A DNA stretch of 64,000 nt from Ferranicluibacter rubi (GTDB lineage: Bacteria; Pseudomonadota; Alphaproteobacteria; Rhizobiales; Rhizobiaceae): NCBI RefSeq assembly GCF_011603255.1, contig NZ_JAANCM010000004.1, forward strand, positions 124,001 through 188,000. The letters are read 5' to 3'. This document shows positions 29,239 through 34,941 of this stretch, piece by piece. The translations under genes were made by a program, and so were the position numbers. Within the stretch, counting starts at the first letter, position 1. Each line of letters opens with the position of its first letter. The notes beneath the pieces are model-generated. The model was given only the letters and a program-made list of their open reading frames with translations, was not told the origin of the DNA and did not search any database.

Positions 29239-30435
<1,197 letters not shown>

Positions 30436-30439
30436 ACAG

Positions 30440-30817
30440 ATGAGTGATGCAAAAAAGACGGTCAATCGCCAGTCCTTCGGACCGAACGAAACCGACATCA
30501 ACCTGTGCTACTTCGTCTGCTGGGACACCACACCGGACCTCGACGACGAGGCTGCCGATCGCTGGGCGCATTTCACGCATGACGAAGATGCCGTCGAGTT
30601 CTTCAAGCTGAAGTCGAAGGACGATACGCTGTACGTCTGGAAGGGCGAACTGGGCATTTCGGCGGCCGACAAGCAGTTCGACTGGTTCCACACCCACTGG
30701 TCGAAGAACCTCAACAGCCATCTTGGTGAGAAGTCGATAGCCGGCAAGGGTTACCGCTGGTCCAACGACGCCTTCGAAGAATTTGATTCCCTCGAATTCG
30801 AGGAAGAGGAAAACTGA
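30440..30817 (+). CDS. Unknown small acidic protein between sucC and sucD
   Basis: A 125-residue soluble protein with no signal peptide or membrane segment. It is acidic (C-terminus SLEFEEEEN) and unusually rich in aromatic residues: seven Trp, in [21 protein letters not shown] and YRW. I do not recognise the family. It starts four bases after sucC and stops three bases before sucD, so the gene is firmly inside the operon, and the sucD ribosome site (GAGGAAGAGG) is formed by its last codons. Base composition matches the neighbours, so it is not a recent foreign insert. In the rhizobial genomes I know, sucC and sucD are adjacent. A role connected with succinyl-CoA synthetase is inference from position. 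Confidence 0.75.
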
Positions 30818-30820
30818 TCC

Positions 30821-31723
30821 ATGTCCATTCTCATCAATAAAGATACCAAGATCCTCGTCCAGGGTCTGACGGGCAAGACCGGCACGTTCCACACCGAACA
30901 GGCGCTCGCCTATCACGGTACGCAGATGGTCGGCGGCATCAACCCGAAGAAGGGTGGCGAGACCTGGGAAGGCTCCAAGGGCGAAAAGCTGCCGATCTTC
31001 GCCACGGTTGCCGAAGGCAAGGAACAGACCGGCGCCGACGCGTCCGTCATCTACGTTCCCCCGGCCGGCGCTGCTGCCGCCATCATCGAGGCGATCGAAG
31101 CGGAAATCCCGCTGATCGTCTGCATCACCGAAGGCATTCCGGTTGCCGACATGGTCAAGGTCAAGGCGCGTCTCGATGCGTCGAAGTCCCGTCTGATCGG
31201 CCCGAACTGCCCCGGCGTCATGACGCCGAACGAGTGCAAGATCGGCATCATGCCGGGCAACATCTTCAAGAAGGGCTCCGTCGGCGTCCTCTCGCGTTCG
31301 GGCACGCTCACCTATGAAGCCGTGTTCCAGACGACCAACGAAGGCCTCGGCCAGACCACGGCCGTCGGCATCGGCGGCGACCCGGTCAAGGGCACCGAAT
31401 TCATCGACGTGCTCGAAATGTTCCTGGCCGACGACGAGACCAAGTCGATCATCATGATCGGTGAAATCGGCGGCTCCGCCGAAGAAGAAGCCGCGCAGTT
31501 CCTGATGGACGAAGCCAAGCGTGGCCGCAAGAAGCCGATGGTCGGCTTCATCGCCGGCCGCACGGCACCTCCCGGCCGCACCATGGGCCATGCAGGCGCC
31601 GTGATCTCCGGCGGCAAGGGTGGCGCAGAAGACAAGATCGCCGCCATGGAACAGGCCGGCATCCGCGTTTCGCCCTCCCCGGCCCGCCTCGGCAAGACGC
31701 TGGTGGACGTCCTCAAGGGCTGA
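30821..31723 (+). CDS. sucD: Succinyl-CoA synthetase alpha subunit
   Basis: CoA-binding subunit (300 aa) carrying the phosphorylated histidine. The N-terminal [17 protein letters not shown], the CoA-site strand [33 protein letters not shown] and the active-site [20 protein letters not shown] with the phospho-His are all intact. It partners with sucC, from which it is separated by the unknown 125-aa gene. A strong hairpin follows, and then sucA 221 bases downstream. Confidence 0.97.
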
Positions 31724-31733
31724 TGCAACGTTT

Positions 31734-31768
31734 AAGGGACGGCCGGCCATTGGCGCCGGCCGTCCCTT
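31734..31768 (+). terminator. Strong hairpin between sucD and sucA
   Basis: AAGGGACGGCCGGC (31734-31747) pairs perfectly with GCCGGCCGTCCCTT (31755-31768) across seven bases. No T-run follows, so it is more likely a partial terminator or mRNA-stabilising structure within the TCA block than a full stop. Confidence 0.55.
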
Positions 31769-31944
31769 GCCCCATCTAAGATGAAAGGCAGTCAAAGCCT
31801 CGCGCTGTGGTCCTGCCAAACAAATGACACGCATACGGCCGTATTGGATGGCCGTCGCAAAGTCGGCCCGGGATGGCGCATCGCATGTCCCCAAGGCCGC
31901 ATCCAACAAGTCAGGAGGCGGACGGACAGGTCCGCGATAAAACC

Positions 31945-34941
31945 ATGGCAAGGCAAGAGGCCAACGAGCAATTTCAACTGACGTCCTTTCTGGACGGCGC
32001 CAATGCGAGCTACATCGAGCAGCTCCACGCGCGCTATGAGGCGGACCCGTCGTCCGTCTCGGGCGAGTGGCAGTCCTTTTTCAAGGCGCTGGCCGACAAT
32101 CCCGAAGACGTCGTGAAGGCCGCCAAGGGCGCCTCGTGGAAGAAGCCGAACTGGCCGCTGACGCCGCGCGACGACCTGACGTCGGCGCTCGACGGCGACT
32201 GGGGCACAGTCGAGAAGGTCATCGAGAAGAAGGTGCAGGCGAAGGCCGAAGCCAAGGCGGAAGCGACCGGCGTTGCCGCCACCCCCGCCGACATTCACCA
32301 GGCGACCCGCGACAGCATCCGCGCCATCATGCTCATCCGCGCCTATCGCATGCGCGGCCACCTGCATGCCAAGCTTGATCCGCTGCAGATCGCAGCCCCG
32401 GTCGAGGACTATCACGAACTGTCCCCGTCCAATTACGGCTTCGAAGCCGCCGACATGGACCGCAAGATCTTCCTCGATAACGTGCTGGGGCTCGAATATG
32501 CCTCGATGCGCGAAATCGTCGACATTCTGGAGCGGACCTACTGCTCGACGCTCGGCGTCGAGTTCATGCACATTTCCGATCCCGAGATCAAAGGCTGGAT
32601 CCAGGAGCGCATCGAAGGCCCCGCAAAGGGCGTGGAGTTCACGCCGGAAGGCAAGAAGGCGATCCTTTCCAAGCTGATCGAGGCCGAAGGCTTCGAGCAG
32701 TTCATCGACGTGAAGTACAAGGGCACCAAGCGCTTCGGCCTCGACGGCGGCGAATCGCTCATTCCGGCGCTCGAACAGATCATCAAGCGCGGCGGCCAGG
32801 ACGGGATGAAGGAAATCATCCTCGGCATGGCCCACCGTGGCCGCCTCAACGTTCTGACCAACGTCATGGGCAAGCCGCACCGCGCCGTGTTCCACGAGTT
32901 CAAGGGCGGCTCGGCCGCGCCTGACGACGTGGAAGGCTCCGGCGACGTGAAGTACCACCTCGGCGCCTCGTCGGACCGTGAGTTCGACGGCAACAAGGTT
33001 CACCTGTCGCTGACGGCCAACCCCTCGCACCTCGAAATCGTCAACCCCGTGGTCATGGGCAAGGCGCGCGCCAAGCAGGACCAGATGGCGACCACCTTCG
33101 AAGGCGACGTGATCCCGCTGAAGGAACGCTCCAAGGTCCTGCCGCTGCTGCTGCATGGCGATGCGGCCTTTGCAGGTCAGGGCGTCACCGCCGAAATCCT
33201 CGGTCTCTCCGGCCTGCGCGGCCACCGCGTCGGCGGCACGCTGCACTTCATCATCAACAACCAGATCGGCTTCACCACCAATCCGGCCTTCTCGCGCTCG
33301 TCGCCCTATCCGTCCGACGTCGCCAAGATGATCGAAGCGCCGATCTTCCACGTCAACGGCGACGATCCGGAAGCGGTGACCTATGCCGCCAAGATCGCCA
33401 TCGAATTCCGGATGAAGTTCCACAAGCCGGTCGTGATCGACATGTTCTGCTACCGCCGCTTCGGCCATAACGAAGGCGACGAACCGTCCTTCACGCAGCC
33501 GAAGATGTACAAGGTCATCCGCGGCCACAAGACGGTCGTGCAGATCTATGGCGAACGCCTGATCGCCGAAGGCCTGATCACCGAAGGCGAACTGGAGAAG
33601 ATGAAGGCCGACTGGCGCGCCCGTCTCGAACAGGAGTTCGAAGCCGGCCAGTCCTACAAGCCCAACAAGGCCGACTGGCTGGATGGTGCATGGTCGGGCC
33701 TGCGCACCGCCGACAATCAGGACGAACAGCGCCGCGGCAAGACCTCGGTGCCGATGAAGTCGCTGAAGGAAATCGGCCGCAAGCTCTCGGAAGTTCCGGA
33801 AGGCTTCAACGTCCATAAGACGATCCAGCGCTTCATGGACAACCGCGGCAACATGATCCAGACGGGCGAAGGCATCGACTGGGCGATGGCGGAGGCGCTG
33901 GCCTTCGGATCGCTCGTCGTCGAAGGCACGAAGATCCGCCTGTCGGGCCAGGATTGCGAGCGCGGCACGTTTTCGCAGCGCCACACCGTGCTCTACGATC
34001 AGCAGACCGAAGAGCGCTATATCCCGCTCGCCAATCTTGCGCCTACCCAGGCGCGCTACGAGGTCATCAACTCGATGCTGTCGGAAGAAGCCGTCCTCGG
34101 CTTCGAATACGGCTATTCGCTCGCTCGTCCGAATGCGCTGACGCTGTGGGAAGCCCAGTTCGGCGACTTCGCCAACGGTGCGCAGGTCGTCTTCGACCAG
34201 TTCATCTCCTCGGGCGAACGCAAGTGGCTGCGCATGTCGGGCCTCGTCTGCCTGCTGCCGCACGGCTATGAGGGCCAGGGTCCGGAGCACTCCTCCGCCC
34301 GCCTCGAGCGCTGGCTGCAGATGTGCGCGGAAGACAACATGCAGGTCGTCAACGTCACGACGCCGGCAAACTACTTCCACGTGCTGCGCCGCCAGATGAA
34401 GCGCGACTTCCGCAAGCCGCTGATCATCATGACGCCGAAGTCTCTGCTGCGTCACAAGCGCGCCATTTCCAGCCTGTCGGAAATGGCCGGGGAGACCTCG
34501 TTCCACCGCCTGCTGTGGGACGATGCGGAGGTCATCAAGGACGGCCCGATCAAGCTCCAGAAGGATGCGAAGATCCGCCGTGTCGTGCTCTGCTCGGGCA
34601 AGGTCTATTACGACCTGCTGGAAGAGCGCGAAAAGCGCGGCATCGACGACATCTACCTTCTGCGCCTGGAACAGCTCTATCCGTTCCCGGCCAAGGCGCT
34701 GATCAACGAGCTCAGCCGCTTCCGCAATGCGGAGATGGTCTGGTGCCAGGAAGAGCCCAAGAACATGGGGTCGTGGTCGTTCATCGATCCCTATCTCGAA
34801 TGGGTTCTGGCGCACATCGATGCCAAGTACCAGCGGGTGCGCTACACCGGCCGCCCGGCCGCAGCCTCGCCGGCAACAGGCCTGATGTCGAAGCATCTGG
34901 CCCAGCTTGCCGCCTTCCTCGAAGACGCGCTCGGAGGCTGA
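31945..34941 (+). CDS. sucA: 2-oxoglutarate dehydrogenase E1 component
   Basis: Thiamine-diphosphate E1 subunit (998 aa) that decarboxylates 2-oxoglutarate and passes the succinyl group to SucB. The N-terminal SYIEQLHARYEADPSSVSGEW mediates E2 binding. The ThDP domain includes GMAHRGRLNVL and the GDxxN-type motif GDAAFAGQGVTAE. Further on are HFIINNQIGFTT, CYRRFGHNEGDEP and the C-terminal EEPKNMGSW. I start at ATG 31945 because the protein then begins with the family's ARQEANEQFQLTSFL; a longer frame from 31873 adds unconserved residues. Confidence 0.96.
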   Translation: MARQEANEQFQLTSFLDGANASYIEQLHARYEADPSSVSGEWQSFFKALADNPEDVVKAAKGASWKKPNWPLTPRDDLTSALDGDWGTVEKVIEKKVQAKAEAKAEATGVAATPADIHQATRDSIRAIMLIRAYRMRGHLHAKLDPLQIAAPVEDYHELSPSNYGFEAADMDRKIFLDNVLGLEYASMREIVDILERTYCSTLGVEFMHISDPEIKGWIQERIEGPAKGVEFTPEGKKAILSKLIEAEGFEQFIDVKYKGTKRFGLDGGESLIPALEQIIKRGGQDGMKEIILGMAHRGRLNVLTNVMGKPHRAVFHEFKGGSAAPDDVEGSGDVKYHLGASSDREFDGNKVHLSLTANPSHLEIVNPVVMGKARAKQDQMATTFEGDVIPLKERSKVLPLLLHGDAAFAGQGVTAEILGLSGLRGHRVGGTLHFIINNQIGFTTNPAFSRSSPYPSDVAKMIEAPIFHVNGDDPEAVTYAAKIAIEFRMKFHKPVVIDMFCYRRFGHNEGDEPSFTQPKMYKVIRGHKTVVQIYGERLIAEGLITEGELEKMKADWRARLEQEFEAGQSYKPNKADWLDGAWSGLRTADNQDEQRRGKTSVPMKSLKEIGRKLSEVPEGFNVHKTIQRFMDNRGNMIQTGEGIDWAMAEALAFGSLVVEGTKIRLSGQDCERGTFSQRHTVLYDQQTEERYIPLANLAPTQARYEVINSMLSEEAVLGFEYGYSLARPNALTLWEAQFGDFANGAQVVFDQFISSGERKWLRMSGLVCLLPHGYEGQGPEHSSARLERWLQMCAEDNMQVVNVTTPANYFHVLRRQMKRDFRKPLIIMTPKSLLRHKRAISSLSEMAGETSFHRLLWDDAEVIKDGPIKLQKDAKIRRVVLCSGKVYYDLLEEREKRGIDDIYLLRLEQLYPFPAKALINELSRFRNAEMVWCQEEPKNMGSWSFIDPYLEWVLAHIDAKYQRVRYTGRPAAASPATGLMSKHLAQLAAFLEDALGG

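Follow-up and report, generated by a model that had tools for sequence, protein, structure and literature searches.

In textbooks, the subunit pairs of core enzymes are encoded by adjacent genes. In the window, the whole stretch of 64,000 nucleotides analysed here, a 125-codon frame lies between sucC and sucD, the genes for the two subunits of succinyl-CoA synthetase (SCS), and this arrangement raises the question of whether the frame is a gene at all and, in that case, whether its product works with SCS or belongs to a passenger of the tricarboxylic acid (TCA) cycle operon. The operon order is mdh-sucC-X-sucD-sucA-sucB, X being the inserted gene, and all five neighbours were named by NCBIfam matches above cut-off (Table 1). 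The sequence-only reading that preceded this analysis had placed the frame on the forward strand, four bases past sucC and three bases ahead of sucD, and its coordinates, length and spacing were all correct: the sucC stop codon (30433-30435) is followed by the inserted ATG (30440), the inserted TGA (30815-30817), TCC and the sucD ATG (30821). A GTG at 30428 is a possible alternative start, giving a product of 129 aa, and the ATG at 30440 is favoured because it is shared by the homologues. A long reverse-strand frame overlapping this region (30371-31951) is probably a GC-rich artefact.

Table 1. Coordinates of the features at the sucC-sucD junction of the window
Feature	Position	Strand	Basis
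Inserted gene; product acidic, 125 aa, from a new family without known domain	30440..30817	+	18 genomes, always at the same junction
sucC, succinate--CoA ligase beta subunit; upstream cistron	29239..30435	+	NCBIfam above cut-off
sucD, succinate--CoA ligase alpha subunit; downstream cistron	30821..31723	+	NCBIfam above cut-off
4-base spacer ACAG between sucC stop and inserted ATG	30436..30439	+	Length of 3 or 4 bases in 17 measured copies
AAGGG, weak Shine-Dalgarno-like stretch near sucC end	30424..30428	+	Read from sequence; putative ribosome use
GAGGAAGAGGAAAA, tail codons of the inserted gene; putative sucD ribosome-binding stretch	30800..30813	+	Function predicted from position

The inserted gene, its relatives and its product

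A profile search of 394 Rhizobiaceae genomes recovered the gene in seven, one of which (G672) belongs to another genus, g147. It is carried by six of the seven genomes of the window's genus (a count that excludes one partial match, G003, E 0.77) and by 12 of the 63 genomes of g147 (excluding a thirteenth weak match, G1151, E 0.009, with internal stops), and all 18 copies are located between sucC and sucD. Since the contig of one g147 carrier (G1146) matches, at 100% identity over its first 8 kb, plasmids of Agrobacterium vitis and Allorhizobium ampelinum S4, this second Rhizobiaceae genus is probably Allorhizobium and includes a grapevine Allorhizobium. A search of 397 order-level and 376 class-level genomes gave the window's own copy and, beyond it, nothing but weak partial matches. 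These are regarded as chance: six at order level (E 0.025-0.063) and two at class level (E 0.005 and 0.011), the latter two with internal stops.

The inserted protein shows 60-63% identity between the two genera, 65 of the 126 alignment columns are invariant across the 18 sequences, and the nucleotide changes fall mostly at third codon positions. Moreover, dN/dS was 0-0.28 in the 15 pairs within the window's genus and 0.10-0.43 in the between-clade comparisons, for which dS has partly reached saturation. All copies preserve the protein tail FEEEE, and in the g147 carriers the stop codon of the gene overlaps the sucD start as TAATG. Judged from these substitution patterns, the inserted frame is a real protein-coding gene under purifying selection. 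That the frame might be open by chance, or belong to a non-coding spacer, could be imagined from the absence of the gene from most sampled relatives and the lack of a known family. Both possibilities are ruled out by dN/dS well below 1 and by homologues in two genera that agree in start and stop and have 60% protein identity. Two outcomes had been named beforehand as fatal to the gene, a lack of homologues at this junction in every relative and a dN/dS close to 1, and neither was observed.

The predicted product has a pI of 4.5, a mass of 14.6 kDa and six Trp; it had been described as acidic, which holds, and as having seven Trp, which was one too many. It had also been said to match no recognised family and, in fact, no match above the curated cut-offs was obtained for the 125-aa protein in Pfam or NCBIfam. 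Among eight family members, one touched Phage_holin_5_1 (E 0.052) and another the flavodoxin model NF005989 (E 0.11), both insignificantly. Sequence searches of the PDB gave nothing significant (best E 0.037, 0.2 and 0.33), the PADLOC search gave no significant match, and no significant relative was found among plasmids, phages and viral contigs. The PHROG search returned one borderline match, phrog_3605, which at E 0.007-0.009 was too weak to be used as a sign of kinship. Thus, an origin of the gene in a known family, phage, plasmid or defence system was unsupported in the Pfam, NCBIfam, PDB, PADLOC, plasmid, phage and viral-contig searches. The AlphaFold2 model, built from five near-identical alignment rows, reached a mean pLDDT of 34.

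Variable occupancy of the sucC-sucD junction

The sequence-only reading had assumed that rhizobial sucC and sucD are normally side by side, a premise that failed when the spacing was surveyed across relatives. In 151 sampled Rhizobiaceae genomes, SucD was matched in 148 and SucC in 149, and 145 genomes carried both on one contig and strand (the other six gave no such pair). The gap between the two genes, taken from the best match per genome with second sucC or sucD copies left out, and counted with the sucC stop codon and with ends not covered by the matches, was at most 26 bp in 84 genomes, 56-108 bp in 11 and 200-2324 bp in 50, the 200-bp line having been chosen after the census was known. 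In the 61 measurable genomes of g147, the gap was 16-18 bp in 44 and 234-236 bp in four, 12 contained the inserted gene, and one had 515 bp; the four (L146, L155, L164, L166) hold an insert different from the window's, and the gap of 515 bp is L136. In the window's genus, the empty site of G006 reads TGA-TTGCC-ATG. The TGATCC spacer of the empty site of G138 recurs on both sides of the inserted gene (places corresponding to 30433-30439 and 30815-30820 of the window) in some genomes of the window's genus, either as an insertion trace or by chance.

Sixty inserts were examined, namely 59 fetched of the 61 gaps of at least 56 bp plus that of the window, and 49 of them contain a collinear frame of at least 45 aa. 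Window's family apart, blastp grouped the slot frames into nine clusters present in at least two genomes, a count that leaves out a cluster made up of five reverse-strand frames and the pair L086/L087, whose frames are probably off-frame readings. These clusters, with Pfam names taken from one representative each and for some clusters only, comprise PIN-domain proteins (15 frames), cupins with a Cupin_2 domain (12), membrane-like proteins of 64-83 aa (8), three clusters of secreted-looking proteins of about 200 aa (7, 4 and 3), which are perhaps distant kin, a membrane-like protein of 105 aa (2), DUF1579 (2) and ribbon-helix-helix proteins (RHH/DUF6364; 2), the membrane-like and secreted-looking labels being assigned by eye. 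Singletons were also present, two of them with transferase domains by Pfam.

The PIN cluster, found in 15 inserts (L066, L069, L072-L076, L081-L087, L089), ends 19-59 bp ahead of sucD, and ribbon-helix-helix frames lie next to PIN genes, where Pfam confirms them in one case and a few more were recognised by eye; we take these PIN-domain proteins to be VapC-like. The slot cupin (L050-L056, L062, L063, L078, L083, L085) resembles the window gene in its similar size (123 aa), slot and strand, and in having close homologues in the slot only: across the 151 genomes, all 12 homologues with 76-100% identity, from nine genus codes, are slot-located, whereas the 16 remoter ones (38-48%) all lie outside it. 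Kinship between the two was rejected, as the window's protein does not share a blastp cluster with the cupin; the Cupin_2 domain is a further difference.

The neighbouring mdh-sucC junction served as a control, in a random sample of 40 of the 140 usable genomes. Of the 37 genomes in which it could be measured, one had at least 200 bp at mdh-sucC and 12 had at least 200 bp at sucC-sucD; the 11 discordant pairs all had the long gap at sucC-sucD (11 to 0; p 0.001 by sign test). The sole exception at mdh-sucC (G177, L222) has about 409 bp, with mdh at a contig end. Between sdhA and sdhB, inserts of 312-926 bp were found in five of the 15 measurable genomes of these 40 (L207, L220, L224, L231, L232), and they carry a Cas2-like gene in two cases (by Pfam in one, by eye in the other), a family-25 glycosyltransferase, a CPCC cysteine-rich protein and one unnamed frame. 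The Cas2-like gene is presumably VapD-like. The sucC-sucD junction is, therefore, a slot that takes many different genes in Rhizobiaceae, and it is not the sole one in TCA operons.

Passenger or partner of succinyl-CoA synthetase

Two options had been offered for the product, a factor of SCS or an unrelated passenger, and the results lean towards the second. It is moderately probable that the sucC-sucD slot of the TCA operon houses the inserted gene as an accessory passenger, a word meant here as a genomic description and not a biochemical one. This reading is favoured because the gene is patchily present, other genes occupy the same slot, and no SucC or SucD residue tracks it: none of the alignment columns of the two subunits separates carriers from non-carriers in both genera, a comparison with a single empty genome in the window's genus, where the six carriers differ from G006 in 22 SucC and 8 SucD columns. 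The product would most likely be soluble and cytosolic and have its own function, without being a required part of SCS.

Where the slot is empty, in G006 and G138, sucC ends with a purine stretch that lies within short range ahead of sucD; in the carriers, the inserted ATG occupies the place after this stretch, and a new purine stretch is found in the tail of the inserted gene. The earlier proposal that the last codons provide the sucD ribosome site thus stands as to position, since GAGGAAGAGGAAAA lies just before the sucD start, and its use by ribosomes is putative. It can be envisaged that recombination in the conserved sucC and sucD sequences on either side brings the inserted gene in or removes it, that the newcomer would take over the sucC-end ribosome site formerly serving sucD, and that its purine-rich tail would serve sucD as a replacement, by which the output of SucC and SucD would be kept, the operon would remain undamaged and the newcomer would gain strong, constant expression. 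The takeover of the sucC-end site fits the window's relatives better than Allorhizobium, because the empty sites of the latter have a GGAC-like stretch within the 16-18 bp spacer itself. The short spacers suggest co-transcription of the inserted gene with sucC and sucD. Additionally, its codon adaptation to TCA genes exceeds that of 41 of the 51 other window frames, which include some spurious ones as well as TCA genes, and is below that of sucC and sucD.

The phylogenetic evidence on whether the gene moved concerns mainly the A. vitis group, as the ten g147 carriers with a SucC near the window's are called here. In the three of these ten genomes that were compared, SucC identity is 92% to the window and 83-84% to G672; for the inserted protein the values are 60-62% and 79-83%, respectively. 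In the SucC tree, the A. vitis group joins the window's genus and G017 (SH-aLRT 98), and G672 and G1189 join the rest of g147 (SH-aLRT 97). There is, consequently, a hint that the inserted gene was exchanged apart from sucC. It is kept as a hint because the tree of the inserted gene, which lacks an outgroup, leaves its split unrooted, the sucC synonymous distances approach saturation in both comparisons (0.96-1.06 and 0.89-0.99), and the SucD distances show no conflict with the inserted gene of the kind seen for SucC. No recombination breakpoint was seen in the flanking sucC and sucD comparisons, those in sucC excluding G770 and G1147, which were out of register. An old presence of the gene followed by many losses is possible as well.

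Beside these comparisons, it was observed that the SucC of the A. vitis group (L125-L134), placed with the window's genus and G017, lies outside its own genus, and so does its SucD; judged by its initial part, its SucA is not closer to the window's than the SucA of its own genus is. This group may have undergone an old replacement of sucCD.

The alternative that comes closest, tentative and rather unlikely, is that the inserted protein is a lineage-specific regulator or assembly factor of SCS, made between the two subunits so as to catch one of them as a nascent chain ahead of the other's arrival. The location of the 18 copies, solely between sucC and sucD, is also what would be expected of a functional partner of SucCD, and the close spacing on both sides and the firm purifying selection agree with it. 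However, SCS manages without the inserted gene in G006 and in most sampled genomes of the family, the same place is taken by other genes, no SucC or SucD residue tracks the gene (with the single empty genome of the window's genus), and the cupin is equally bound to the slot. An obligate subunit or assembly factor would accompany SucCD everywhere, and the protein does not: SucD was matched in nearly every family genome sampled (148 of 151) and the inserted gene in 7 of 394.

It is improbable that the inserted protein is a toxin-antitoxin, defence or phage-derived element that stabilises the operon, as the slot PIN genes might do elsewhere. The PIN cluster in 15 inserts, the Cas2-like gene in the sdhA-sdhB slot of two genomes and the borderline phrog_3605 match (E 0.007-0.009) point in this direction, but the window has a single collinear frame between sucC and sucD, with no second one for a partner, and its product has no PADLOC, phage, plasmid or viral-contig relative. 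Neither an adjacent second small gene nor a known toxin or antitoxin domain was found.

A broader proposal, equally improbable, is that sucC-sucD would be a functional exchange slot in which the diverse inserts (the window family, the cupin, the secreted-looking and membrane proteins and, by comparison, those of sdhA-sdhB) each modulate or attach to the flanking TCA enzyme. If this were true, bacterial lineages would swap TCA modulators like cassettes. The sdhA-sdhB inserts count somewhat against the passenger reading, as they could mean that TCA enzyme pairs are attractors of modulators.

The diversity of the slot advises caution, as position alone is a poor ground for assigning a function in succinyl-CoA metabolism. 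Moreover, it offers a natural panel of many genera in which it could be asked whether slots of this kind give new genes a cheap place to be expressed or are a route by which modulators become attached to the TCA cycle.

Precedents for genes between sucC and sucD

The Roseobacter type of sucCD insertion was already known. In the sections of Christie-Oleza et al. (2012, PMC3305630) that deal with these genes, SPO_PG006 of Ruegeria pomeroyi is described as an orphan gene of 169 aa between sucC and sucD, co-transcribed with them and with its product detected by mass spectrometry. The same sections report variable, poorly conserved genes between sucC and sucD in Roseobacter relatives, together with an insert in the sdh operon, and ask whether such genes are TCA helpers or opportunists that gain high expression. 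The Roseobacter orphans and the window gene are alike in being unrecognised collinear frames between sucC and sucD, absent from most relatives and with other genes found at the same junction. They differ in that SPO_PG006 has 169 aa, is unique and is expressed, whereas the window family has 125 aa, occurs in two Rhizobiaceae genera and is known from sequence, the two being compared by description. The additional sucCD coding sequences were called exclusive to the Roseobacter strains compared in that paper; in contrast, 50 of 145 Rhizobiaceae genomes have at least 200 bp between sucC and sucD.

In the context of Rhizobiaceae, the lines of PMC5118466 that name these loci in Rhizobium leguminosarum 3841 give sucD as RL4436 and sucC as RL4438. 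A slot gene, RL4437, is therefore likely in this strain, because the locus numbers leave it between the two, and its likeness to the window gene is one of locus numbering only. Among the matches listed in a search of the open-access literature, as seen in titles and abstract openings, there was no report of the inserted gene or of the sucC-sucD slot of Rhizobiaceae. Relative to the Roseobacter precedent, as far as the quoted sections of PMC3305630 describe it, the new elements are the extension to Rhizobiaceae and a new family. The subunit pair of a core enzyme is a recurrent insertion slot in Rhizobiaceae, as the 2012 paper described for Roseobacter.
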